Shown in pieces: positions 18,162 through 45,489 of a stretch of DNA of 64,000 nt. This DNA is from Leptotrichia sp. oral taxon 847 (GTDB lineage: Bacteria; Fusobacteriota; Fusobacteriia; Fusobacteriales; Leptotrichiaceae), in the NCBI RefSeq assembly GCF_001553645.1, contig NZ_CP014231.1, positions 1,240,001 through 1,304,000 of the forward strand, read 5' to 3'. The notes beneath the pieces were generated by a model, which was not told the origin of the DNA, did not search any database, and saw only the letters and a list, made by a program, of their open reading frames with translations. A program made the position numbers and the translations under genes. Positions within the stretch are counted from its first letter, which is position 1. Each line of letters opens with the position of its first letter.

Positions 18162-18182
18162 GTTGATAAAGGAGTGATAGAT

Positions 18183-18437
18183 ATGTTGGCTGTAAATTTT
18201 TCAACCATGAGAAATAATTTAAAAAGTTACTGTGATAAGGCAGTAAAAGAAAATGAAGATGTAATAGTAACAAGAAAAAATGAAGAAAATGTAGTTTTAA
18301 TAAATCTCAAAAAATATAATCAATTTTTGAAAGCAGTTAAAAATTCTGAATATCTTGCGAAATTGGATAGAGGATTTGAGCAGGTAAAAAGTGGAAAAGG
18401 ACAAGTGCATGATTTGATAGAGGTTGACGATGAATAA
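18183..18437 (+). CDS. yefM: YefM/Phd-family antitoxin
   Basis: An 84-residue antitoxin. LAVNFSTMRNNLKSYCDKAVKENEDVIVTRKNEEN matches the N-terminal DNA-binding fold of Phd/YefM, and the acidic C-terminal tail (KSGKGQVHDLIEVDDE) is the toxin-binding part. The ATG at 18183 is chosen because AAAGGAG ends 8 bases before it; a GTG at 18174 overlaps that site. It overlaps the toxin gene by 8 bases. It should bind the TGTACA sites in its promoter and neutralise YoeB. Confidence 0.92.
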   Translation: MLAVNFSTMRNNLKSYCDKAVKENEDVIVTRKNEENVVLINLKKYNQFLKAVKNSEYLAKLDRGFEQVKSGKGQVHDLIEVDDE

Positions 18438-18684
18438 ATTATGGACTGATGAAGGATGGAGCGATTATTTATATTGGCAGTCTCAAGATAAAAAGACTTT
18501 GAAACGAATCAATGAACTTATAAAAGATATTGAAAGAAATGGGGCATTAAATGGTATAGGTAAACCCGAAGCTTTAAAATATAGAAAAGGATTTAGTCGA
18601 AGAATTGATGAAGCGAATAGGCTTGTATACACTATTGATGAAAATGGGACTTTGTGGATAATTTCTTGTAGAGGACATTACTAA
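18430..18684 (+). CDS. yoeB: YoeB-family toxin, ribosome-dependent mRNA endonuclease
   Basis: An 84-residue protein, the exact usual length of YoeB. It keeps WSDYLYWQ, INELIKDIERN, KPEALK (catalytic Glu47), FSRRIDEANRLVY (active-site Arg) and the C-terminal His83-Tyr84. YoeB binds the ribosomal A site and cleaves mRNA. All key residues are intact, so the toxin should be active. The ATG at 18430 has AGAGG in front and overlaps the antitoxin stop; an upstream TTG at 18424 is less likely. Confidence 0.93.
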   Translation: MNKLWTDEGWSDYLYWQSQDKKTLKRINELIKDIERNGALNGIGKPEALKYRKGFSRRIDEANRLVYTIDENGTLWIISCRGHY

Positions 18685-18956: not shown

Positions 18957-20099
18957 ATGAAAAAGGCAAATATGTTAATTTTACTAGGATTTTTGAGTTT
19001 TGGTGTTATTGGAAGTGCAAAAACTATAAAAACTTTTGATAAAAAAAATTATGCTATTGAAATAGCTTCAAAAAAAGAAGGTTTGATTAGTGAGGCAGAA
19101 AATAAAGTTTTGGATACTACTCAAAATCAATTGGCTGTCAAGAATGTGACTGATGATGAAGGAACTGGAAGAGAAACAGAAAATCTTTTGGGAAAAAGAA
19201 GAAAAAAAGTTACTGAAAAGACACAGGCTGGAGAAAAATCTGTGAAAAAATCATTTTGGAGTAAAATTTTGAACAGAAAAAAAAGTGATAAAAATGAAAC
19301 TTGGAAACTAGTTTGGGATGATGAATTTGATTCAAATAGCTTAGATACTTCTAAATGGAGTTACTGGGGAGATAATAATGTCCCTTGGAATGCTGGAAAC
19401 TATTTGGATGAAAATGGTAATTTGGTGGACCAGTCTGGATTTAAAGTTAAACATTATTATTTAAAGGACAATGTTAAAGTAAAAGATGGTAATTTGGTGA
19501 TTGAAGTAAAAAAAGAAAATAATAAAACTGTGAATATTGACGGAAAACAGAGAAGAATATTGTATAGCTCTGGAGCAATTCATACAAAAGGGAAATTTTC
19601 TGTACAAGAAGGAAAAATAGAAATGAGAGCAGCAATGCCTAAAGGTGTGGGAACTTGGCCTGCGTTTTGGATGTGGCCTGAATGGTACAGTCAAGGAACG
19701 AATAAATTAGCGGATGGAGAAATTGATATTTTTGAAATTTATGGTTCCGATTTATCCAGAGTAACTGGGACAGCGCATGTTTTAAAGACAACAGAAAATA
19801 GATACGAAATGTTTGACAAAGATGATGAAAAAATTAAAAAGAGTGAAGATTTGACAAAATTTAACACTTATGCTGTCGAATGGGATTCAAAAGAGATAAA
19901 ATGGCTATTTAACGGAAGAGTTTATAAAAAAAGAACTATGAAGGAAATGGAGAAAAAAGCTGGAAGAAATCCGTATAATCAACCATATTTTATTATGATA
20001 AATGTGGCTCTTGAAAATCAGACTGGAAGTGATGGAGATGTGGACTTTCCTACTGAAATGAAAGTTGACTATGTAAGAGTTTATAAAAAAGTTAAATAA
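18957..20099 (+). CDS. secreted glycoside hydrolase family 16 (beta-glucanase/laminarinase-like)
   Basis: A 380-residue exported enzyme. Residues 1-21 are a signal peptide (MKKANMLILLGFLSFGVIGSA). Residues 22-115 are a charged linker rich in Lys and Glu. From about 117 a GH16 domain starts with WKLVWDDEFDSNSLDTSKW. EIDIFE at residues 255-260 is the catalytic E-x-D-x-x-E motif, and FHxxAVEWD-type (TYAVEWDSKEIKWLFNG) and DYVRVYKK end segments complete the fold. GH16 enzymes cut beta-1,3/1,4-glucans or galactans. It may act on dietary or host-associated glucans, or on the cell's own surface polymer. Confidence 0.93.
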   Translation: MKKANMLILLGFLSFGVIGSAKTIKTFDKKNYAIEIASKKEGLISEAENKVLDTTQNQLAVKNVTDDEGTGRETENLLGKRRKKVTEKTQAGEKSVKKSFWSKILNRKKSDKNETWKLVWDDEFDSNSLDTSKWSYWGDNNVPWNAGNYLDENGNLVDQSGFKVKHYYLKDNVKVKDGNLVIEVKKENNKTVNIDGKQRRILYSSGAIHTKGKFSVQEGKIEMRAAMPKGVGTWPAFWMWPEWYSQGTNKLADGEIDIFEIYGSDLSRVTGTAHVLKTTENRYEMFDKDDEKIKKSEDLTKFNTYAVEWDSKEIKWLFNGRVYKKRTMKEMEKKAGRNPYNQPYFIMINVALENQTGSDGDVDFPTEMKVDYVRVYKKVK

Positions 20100-21724: not shown

Positions 21725-22429
21725 ATGATAAAAGAAATATTGTATTTAGTAATGATGGGATTGATAGCGACAACATCGTTAAATGCGGCTGGGAAAACTA
21801 ATGGATTGGTTTGTATTGATCCAGGACATCAATTGAAAGGAAATTCAGGACTTGAGCCTGTGGCGCCAGGTTCGAAAGTTAGAAAAGTAAAGGTTTCGTC
21901 TGGAACAAGAGGAGTTGCAACTAAAAAAAATGAATATGAATTGACGCTTGAAGTTGGATTAAAATTAAGAGATGCGCTAAAAGCAAAGGGATACCCTGTT
22001 TATATGATAAGAGAAACACATGACGTGAATATAAGTAACAAAGAAAGAGCGGAAAAAGCAAACAGCATGGGATGTGAAGCCTATATCAGAATACATGCCG
22101 ATGGAATAAATAATTCGAGTACAAACGGAGTATCGGTATTGACTGCTTCAGCTAAAAATCCATATACAAAAGATGTTCAGCGTCCGAGTGAAAAATTGTC
22201 AAGAGATATTTTATCTGAATATGTAAAATCGACAGGTGCTAAAAACAGAGGAATTTCATACAGAGATGACCTAACAGGGACAAACTGGTCAAAAGTTCCA
22301 ACTACATTAATAGAATTAGGATTTATGTCAAATCCTACAGAAGATAGAAAAATGGCAACACAAGAATATCAAAATAAAATGGTAACAGGAATTGTAAATG
22401 GGATAAAAAAATATTTTAGGGAAAAGTAG
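21725..22429 (+). CDS. exported N-acetylmuramoyl-L-alanine amidase (Amidase_3)
   Basis: About 234 residues with a signal peptide ending near LNAAG. The catalytic domain has VCIDPGHQ, NEYELTLEVG, YIRIHADG and TLIELGFMSNPTED, supplying the two His and Glu zinc ligands and the catalytic Glu. It cleaves the amide bond between muramic acid and the stem peptide during cell division or remodelling. Three ATGs occur in tandem (21719, 21722, 21725). The third is at the best spacing from GGGAGG and is chosen; only two residues are in doubt. Confidence 0.92.
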   Translation: MIKEILYLVMMGLIATTSLNAAGKTNGLVCIDPGHQLKGNSGLEPVAPGSKVRKVKVSSGTRGVATKKNEYELTLEVGLKLRDALKAKGYPVYMIRETHDVNISNKERAEKANSMGCEAYIRIHADGINNSSTNGVSVLTASAKNPYTKDVQRPSEKLSRDILSEYVKSTGAKNRGISYRDDLTGTNWSKVPTTLIELGFMSNPTEDRKMATQEYQNKMVTGIVNGIKKYFREK

Positions 22430-22557
22430 ATAGATTTATTTAATAATTTAAAATTTTTATCAAAAAGAAAAATTTAGGGAGTGATGTAAAAAATAATTTA
22501 AAATTATTTTTAGTTTGAAAATTGGAAATGTTAAATTAAAAAACTATGTCGTTACCC

Positions 22558-22586
22558 TTGACAAAAGGACTTTTTTAGTATAAAAT
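22558..22586 (+). promoter_or_regulatory. strong promoter of the ribosomal-protein cluster
   Basis: TTGACA at 22558-22563 and TAAAAT at 22581-22586 are spaced by 17 bases, close to the sigma-70 consensus. It lies 301 bases before rpsL and so produces a long untranslated leader. Between 22430 and 22557 I see nothing else recognisable. Confidence 0.8.
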
Positions 22587-22600
22587 GTCTTTTGTGAAAT

Positions 22601-22794
22601 GTTGCAAAATAAAATTGCAACATATTTTCAGGACCGAGCATCCGGTGTGCCTGATATTAAAATATCAGGAATTGCTTTACGTTATAACTCATAAACTAAA
22701 TCAATAAAAGTATATTAAAATATTTTTATAGAGTCAATTTAGAAGTAAGTTGTTACATCTAAAATAGATGTACATCTATGTTTTTTTAAACATA
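22601..22794 (+). promoter_or_regulatory. structured leader RNA upstream of rpsL
   Basis: The leader holds five inverted repeats: GTTGCAA/TTGCAAC (22601-22621); CAGG-ACCG/CGGT-CCTG with a GTG bulge (22629-22653); CCTGATAT/ATATCAGG (22650-22669); ACATCT/AGATGT (22755-22771); TATGTTT/AAACATA (22777-22794). The second and third share CCTG at 22650-22653, so they exclude each other. The segment 22629-22650 is far richer in G+C than its surroundings. This looks like a regulatory leader, for example a ribosomal-protein binding site or attenuator. I do not recognise it as a named RNA family. Confidence 0.6.
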
Positions 22795-22886
22795 AACTGA
22801 AGAAATGAGCTTTATTTTAAAAAAGTTTTAGTTTTGAAAATAACGACAGATATATATAAATTAAGAAATTTGAGAGGAGGAAAAAG

Positions 22887-23267
22887 ATGCCTACTATTAA
22901 TCAATTAGTAAGATTTGGTAGAAGTACAACTGAAAAAAAGAAAAAATCACCTGCATTAAAAGGTAATCCACAAAAAAGAGGGGTTTGTGTAAGAGTATAT
23001 ACAACTACGCCTAAAAAACCGAATTCAGCGTTAAGAAAAGTAGCGAGGGTTAAATTAGTAAATGGAATTGAAGTTACTGCTTATATTCCAGGGATAGGAC
23101 ACAACTTACAGGAACACAGTATCGTTCTTTTAAGAGGAGGAAGAACAAAAGATTTGCCAGGGGTTAGATATAAAATAATTAGAGGAGCATTGGATACGGC
23201 AGGAGTTGTAAACAGAAAACAAGGTAGATCAAGATACGGTGCAAAAAAACCGGCAGCAGCTAAATAA
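22887..23267 (+). CDS. rpsL: 30S ribosomal protein S12
   Basis: A 126-residue decoding-centre protein. It starts [12 protein letters not shown] and has [16 protein letters not shown] and [13 protein letters not shown]. Both classical streptomycin-resistance lysines are wild type in these segments. AGAGGAGG lies just before the ATG. It is the first gene of the cluster and stands behind the long leader. Confidence 0.98.
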
Positions 23268-23288: not shown

Positions 23289-23770
<482 letters not shown>

Positions 23771-45415: not shown

Positions 45416-45489
45416 TCAGGAATAGTCTAATGGTAGGACGTCCGGCTCTGACCCGGCAGGTAGTGGTTCGAATCCATTTTCCTGAGCCA
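45416..45489 (+). tRNA. tRNA-Gln (anticodon CUG)
   Basis: The acceptor stem TCAGGAA/TTCCTGA has seven pairs, with discriminator G and an encoded CCA. The D arm is GTC...GAC, the anticodon loop CTCTGAC gives CUG (Gln, CAG codons), and the T arm holds GGTTCGAATCC. The outermost anticodon-stem pair is a T-C mismatch. In an AT-rich genome CAG codons are rare, so this is probably a second Gln tRNA besides a UUG species. An open frame on the other strand here is a shadow. Confidence 0.9.

Follow-up and report, generated by a model that had tools for sequence, protein, structure and literature searches.

A conserved rpsL leader in Leptotrichia resembles the S7-site junction of 16S rRNA and may sense ribosomal protein S7

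Whether the diverse leaders found ahead of rpsL respond to ribosomal protein S7 is a question raised in PMC2965389, and the rpsL locus of Leptotrichia sp. oral taxon 847 raises it again. We examined this locus within a window of 64,000 nucleotides, positions 1240001-1304000 of a 2.19-Mb single-contig genome; all positions below are those of the window, on its forward strand. The gene rpsL, for ribosomal protein S12 (22887..23267; TIGR00981, E 3e-66), opens a cluster that reads rpsL, rpsG, fusA, tuf, rpsJ, rplC and on, in other words str running into the S10 genes. It is preceded by a sigma-70-type promoter with 11 of the 12 consensus bases (22558..22586), whose -35 box TTGACA (22558-22563) and -10 box TAAAAT (22581-22586) are separated by 17 bases. 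This promoter ranks first of 10 promoter-like sites between 22400 and 24000, a region for which shuffles yield a mean of 7.2 sites of any quality, and the relatives whose upstream regions were read have a similar promoter ahead of rpsL. With a transcript start near 22593, the leader is about 295 bases long, so that the preliminary description of this DNA, which had announced a near-consensus promoter and a leader of this length, was right on both counts. The leader ends with the Shine-Dalgarno sequence GGAGG of rpsL (22876..22880), and its calculated fold (-61.1, against a shuffle mean of -45.0; z -3.98) beats 200 of 200 dinucleotide shuffles. The second gene, rpsG, encodes S7, the proposed regulator (23301..23770; TIGR01029); this single copy of the genome is broken once by a frameshift in a T run near 23424-23429, which is missing in 6 of 6 compared relatives, and the frameshift is probably a sequencing error. 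Elsewhere in the window, we noted a gene pair for a Phd/YefM antitoxin and a YoeB-like toxin (18174-18684), and a glycosyl hydrolase family 16 protein (18957-20099) with an N-terminal signal-like stretch, judged by eye.

The leader contains a conserved core (22681..22844), here called the type A element, which is present as a single copy ahead of rpsL in 18 of the 33 genomes of its family, the Leptotrichiaceae, which includes Streptobacillus. We located rpsL in 32 of these 33 genomes and compared their upstream regions (30, plus L032 and L033); in the order, 90 genomes have rpsL, 50 upstream regions were read (30 and a further 20), and the other 40 were covered by a model, R1, only. The 18 genomes belong to four genera (g1, g3, g6 and g8). 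The core directly follows the promoter in 15 of them, and about 86 extra bases separate the two in the window genome, G010 and G013. Model R1, searched under strict filters, matches 18 of 96 genomes of the order (E<=4.1e-14), at one place each and always at the rpsL leader, counts to be read with 9 of the 18 matched sequences having served to build it and 13 of the 18 genomes coming from one genus. Its other matches are just two, with E values of 0.13 and 0.67, and it finds no credible match in the 14 other family loci, the 16S rRNA or the E. coli locus (best E 0.58).

The structure of this core is maintained by paired changes. From the 18 sequences, aligned with MAFFT without regard to structure, RNAalifold predicts 34 pairs, 9 of which show both-sided changes. 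In the named structure, 99.5% of 576 cells are paired, and 12 of the 32 pairs, or 35 cells, have changed on both sides. The shuffle means are 5.1 pairs (none of 500 shuffles being as high as 12) and 8.7 cells, and controls with the structure slid along the alignment reach at most 4 pairs and 6 cells, a comparison in which the named structure is favoured because it was derived from those same 18 sequences. Moreover, 79 of the 244 columns of the core are invariant, unpaired junction strands included. In its conservation, its covariation and its place ahead of a ribosomal protein gene, the element thus agrees with ribosomal protein leaders in general, and we class it as a new variant among them.

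What does this RNA resemble? In the genome's own 16S rRNA, aligned to Rfam RF00177, a part of the 3' domain reads closing stem, AA, long helix, UAGUA, a helix starting with A and ending with U, GAAUAC, and the closing stem again. We take these parts to be helices H28, H29 and H43, and their junction to be the site held by S7. In all 18 leaders, the order is the same: CUCAU, AA or AAA, CUAAAU to AUUUAG, AGUA, an A..U helix, GAAG, and AUGAG, with CUAAGU also counted at the CUAAAU position and with the linker AAGUA rather than AGUA in the clade of the window. Thus, as read from its sequence, the leader can form a junction with the layout and the linkers of the S7-site junction of 16S.

In the window, the closing stem is formed by CUCAU (22688..22692) and AUGAG (22805..22809), both invariant in 18/18. 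The H29-like helix pairs CUAAAU (22696..22701; CUAAAU or CUAAGU in every sequence) with AUUUAG (22737..22742), as found by the 18-sequence comparison. There follow the junction strand A-AGUA (22743..22747), whose AGUA is found in 18/18, then the four-pair H43-like helix (22748..22751 with 22795..22798), and finally the junction strand GAAGAA (22799..22804), whose GAAG is likewise common to all 18. In the H43-like helix, 72 of 72 cells are paired and 3 of the 4 pairs have changed on both sides, giving AAUC/GAUU, AGUU/AACU and AGCC/GGCU. Between its strands stand two covarying hairpins, P3 (22754..22772; both-sided changes in 5 of 8 pairs) and P4 (22777..22794; in 4 of 7), the latter with a loop of very variable length. 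A weakly supported outer stem could join 22681..22685 to 22840-22844, with no both-sided change and 1 of 72 cells broken. The GUUA of the core may be a start-site feature and not a stem, since GUUA is common at presumed rpsL starts elsewhere.

How far could chance account for this likeness? The combination of AGUAA, three further pairs and UGAA within 130 bases occurs once in the genome's own 16S and 23S rRNAs, at that very junction. The probability of finding AGUA before and GAA after one given helix is about 3e-4 by the composition of the leader; a coincidence at the percent level is still conceivable, since the choice lay among several helices and several candidate targets. Plain alignment of 7 of the 18 leaders with the genome's own 16S and 23S does no better than shuffles at any site. 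When a single A+T-rich leader is shuffled, AGUAA..UGAA with four pairs comes up 4-11% of the time, so that conservation and layout are what carries the case. As chance predicts, the string occurs with three pairs in 2 of 12 other upstream regions of the family (L025 and L031) and with four pairs in 2 of 20 further family and order loci (L032 and L042). It is no universal mark of S7, since it is missing, at three pairs, from all 80 rpsL-rpsG spacers of distant bacteria that were searched (17 of which exceed 60 bases).

A close comparison is offered by E. coli, in which the published S7 operator of the str operon is the rpsL-rpsG spacer, and the two RNA targets of S7, 16S rRNA and str mRNA, bear similar S7 sites (PMC10931766). 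This spacer contains AGUAAGG...CCUGAA inside CUCCGUU/AACGGAG, a string that we noticed after the S7 idea had arisen and that played no part in forming it; it arises in 20 of 2000 shuffles of the spacer, and folding does not favour its AGG/CCU inner helix (pairing probability of about 8%). The Leptotrichia element would thus share with the E. coli operator the operon, the proposed repressor and AGUAA...UGAA inside a closing stem. It differs from it in preceding rpsL rather than lying between rpsL and rpsG, and in being able to form a three-way junction, which is nearer to 16S. In 30 of 30 loci of the family, rpsL and rpsG stand only 15-33 bases apart (96 in E. coli), too close to accommodate a site of the E. 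coli type.

A second conserved pairing suggests how such an element could act. The CUAAA strand has two conserved partners, AUUUAG nearby and UUUUAGUUU far downstream (22826..22834), and all of these strands are found in 18/18. The alternative long-range helix, AACUAAA/UUUAGUU, in which AAACUAAA (22693..22700) pairs with 22827-22834, overlaps the CUAAAU helix of the junction, so that the two would compete. Covariation is uninformative on the closing stem, the alternative helix and the outer stem, since there is hardly any variation in these three. By calculation, all 18 leaders fold with the alternative helix at an energy no higher than that of the junction fold, and in 17 of them the junction fold leaves the rpsL Shine-Dalgarno less open (the order is reversed in L019), a modest effect obtained from folding calculation alone. 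The H29-like helix by itself is weak (-1.7 kcal/mol), as would be expected if this structure depends on a protein to keep it together.

These folding results suggest S7-dependent repression of rpsL translation. Surplus S7, beyond what free 16S rRNA can take up, would bind the rpsL leader where it copies the 16S junction. When S7 is absent, AACUAAA would pair with the downstream UUUAGUU in the form that is more stable by calculation, leaving the Shine-Dalgarno of rpsL more open. When S7 holds the junction, the downstream U-rich strand would be freed to pair near the Shine-Dalgarno, and translation of rpsL would decrease, along with that of the following genes, through coupling or mRNA decay. 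What the sequences show is the conserved element, its covariation and its agreement with 16S in linkers and layout; that S7 is the ligand, that its effect is repression and that translation, not transcription, is the controlled step are inferred. We judge it fairly probable that the leader is an S7-sensing autoregulatory RNA in which an alternative helix competes against the junction. The fuller proposal is that, in a phylum with no recorded S7 control, the leader rebuilds the H28-H29-H43 junction of 16S at the front of the transcript instead of between rpsL and rpsG, and that this placement would let one S7 switch govern the whole str-S10 run by means of an internal alternative helix; we hold it more tentatively, giving it slightly less than an even chance. 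Through an S7-sensing leader of this kind, a cell with S7 to spare may damp the expression of its own ribosome genes. The element offers a compact case for experiment: four bases of AGUA, three of GAA, one short RNA and one protein.

The leader might instead answer to a different protein encoded in the cluster, such as S12, L4, S8, S10 or an elongation factor; it would then be by chance that it looks like the S7 junction. Str running into the S10 genes (rpsL, rpsG, fusA, tuf, rpsJ and rplC) provides many possible ligands. We consider this rather unlikely, given that local alignment to the whole of 16S and 23S reveals no other site beyond shuffles and that the linkers match the very junction that we take to be bound by S7. 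It does draw some strength from rpsL leaders elsewhere, which are diverse and whose partners are described as not known in the parts of PMC2965389 and PMC2704228 concerned with them. Less probable still is a structural leader with no ligand at all, which would stabilise the mRNA or keep a ribosome standby site open: the modest size of the calculated Shine-Dalgarno effects and the lack of a clear terminator would suit it, but the 79 invariant columns extend to unpaired junction strands, whose invariance simple stabilisation would not call for.

The S7-sensing reading places the switch in the core, whereas the preliminary description had placed it upstream, in two mutually exclusive hairpins. 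The region between promoter and core (22587..22680) comprises the transcript start and a clade-specific 5' add-on, the extra bases being counted beyond the -10-to-core distance of the relatives. It folds into a first hairpin of 8 pairs (22600..22622; 22600-22607 with 22615-22622), with 24 of 24 cells paired and one both-sided change (G-C to A-U); a second hairpin with a bulged stem (22629..22653; 22629-22636 with 22643-22653; -7.8 kcal/mol), with 23 of 24 cells paired, the unpaired one being in G013; and a third with a perfect stem (22650..22669; 22650-22657 with 22662-22669; -8.0 kcal/mol), with 24 of 24 cells paired. These figures come from 3 genomes, and shuffles often equal the pairing values of the add-on stems in these 3 sequences. 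The bulged and perfect stems do share CCTG (22650-22653), just as had been described, and this CCTG is fixed in 3 of 3 genomes, the perfect stem being kept through one-sided G-U changes, which is weakly compatible with a competition between the two hairpins. The test proposed for them was covariation, and among the window genome (G000), G010 and G013, three sequences that give it little power, neither stem shows any both-sided change, so that both fail. The add-on occupies its orthologous place in just 3 of the 13 genomes of the genus (DNA search E 2.8e-46, 1.3e-27 and 2.2e-19), the remaining matches being short and weak (best E 0.003); with no multiple copies, and with this one place, a mobile or repeat origin was rejected. 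An anti-Shine-Dalgarno CCUCC in a loop of G010 was also set aside, as it is missing from the window and from G013.

Control of the cluster by competition between the bulged and perfect hairpins (22629-22669) is thus very improbable, since their nearly equal calculated energies and their common, unchanged CCTG are outweighed by their absence from the locus in 10 of 13 genus genomes, by stems devoid of both-sided change and by a U-rich terminator tail that is poor in the window and missing in G010 and G013. The preliminary description is borne out in its broader idea: ahead of rpsL stands a structured leader in which pairings alternate, and its likely ligand is a ribosomal protein, S7 having been among those guessed. 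The named hairpins are not supported as the switch, and both the hairpin at 22600-22622 and the covarying structure downstream had been overlooked. Beside the proposed S7-sensing core, the extra 5' hairpins of this clade (22600-22669) would be accessory, perhaps shielding the 5' end.

A terminator/antiterminator reading was likewise abandoned: before rpsL there is no proper intrinsic terminator, the sole candidate being the 22650-22669 hairpin with its poor, unconserved tail, where 0.4 would be expected by chance. An idea of boxA and NusB-S10, suggested by UGAGCUUUUUAAAAG, was dropped as well, for the genome's own five rRNA leaders, inspected by eye, show no such boxA. In Rfam searches over the window, only a tRNA (45416-45486) reaches its gathering score and no leader family does, in agreement with the earlier remark that the leader matches no named RNA family; over 22400-23000, the whole library gives just RF01197 and RF02751 at E<=10, at chance level and far below their gathering scores.

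Other ribosomal leaders are comparable in part. The rpsL motif of 'Candidatus Pelagibacter ubique', which we take to be Rfam RF01773 (rpsL_psuedo), is also an rpsL 5' leader; the leader of the window has no match to it at E<=10, and it is by description and by this Rfam search that we set the two apart. That motif has a three-stem junction with a nearly invariant J2-3, and in the part of PMC2704228 devoted to it, its authors saw no likeness to an S7 site. The multiform attenuators of Listeria, Xanthomonas, Pseudomonas and Rickettsia are rpsL leaders with alternative pairings too, but they end in intrinsic terminators (PMC2965389), whereas the core here has none. The S4 leader of Fusobacteriales, likewise ribosomal and from this very order, may imitate rRNA as well, but its ligand is S4 and its genes are rpsM, rpsK and rpsD (PMC7247131); Table 1 of that paper gives 20 leaders, none of them ahead of rpsL (S12). 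Leptotrichia buccalis was analysed in PMC11109978, whose main text does not mention rpsL. In the literature searched, which for the latter paper means its main text, we found no description of a Fusobacteriota rpsL leader.

The rest of the family and order have rpsL leaders of other kinds. Nine genomes (L020-L028, of the Streptobacillus type and related genera) have a different long leader, type B, in which a GUACA hairpin on the 5' side is combined with a second one that has AGAACGU in its loop; 8 of these sequences were aligned (all except L022), and they were rejected as members of the core, having another conserved hairpin and a poor fit. The leader of L029 (G004) looks like a hybrid, in which GUUAUGACUCAUAAACUA and AUGAUUUUAGUUU are like those of the window's type and the AGAACGU hairpin replaces the junction. 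Finally, L030-L033 and the Fusobacteriaceae L034-L051 have short rpsL leaders, many of them with GUUA where transcription presumably starts.
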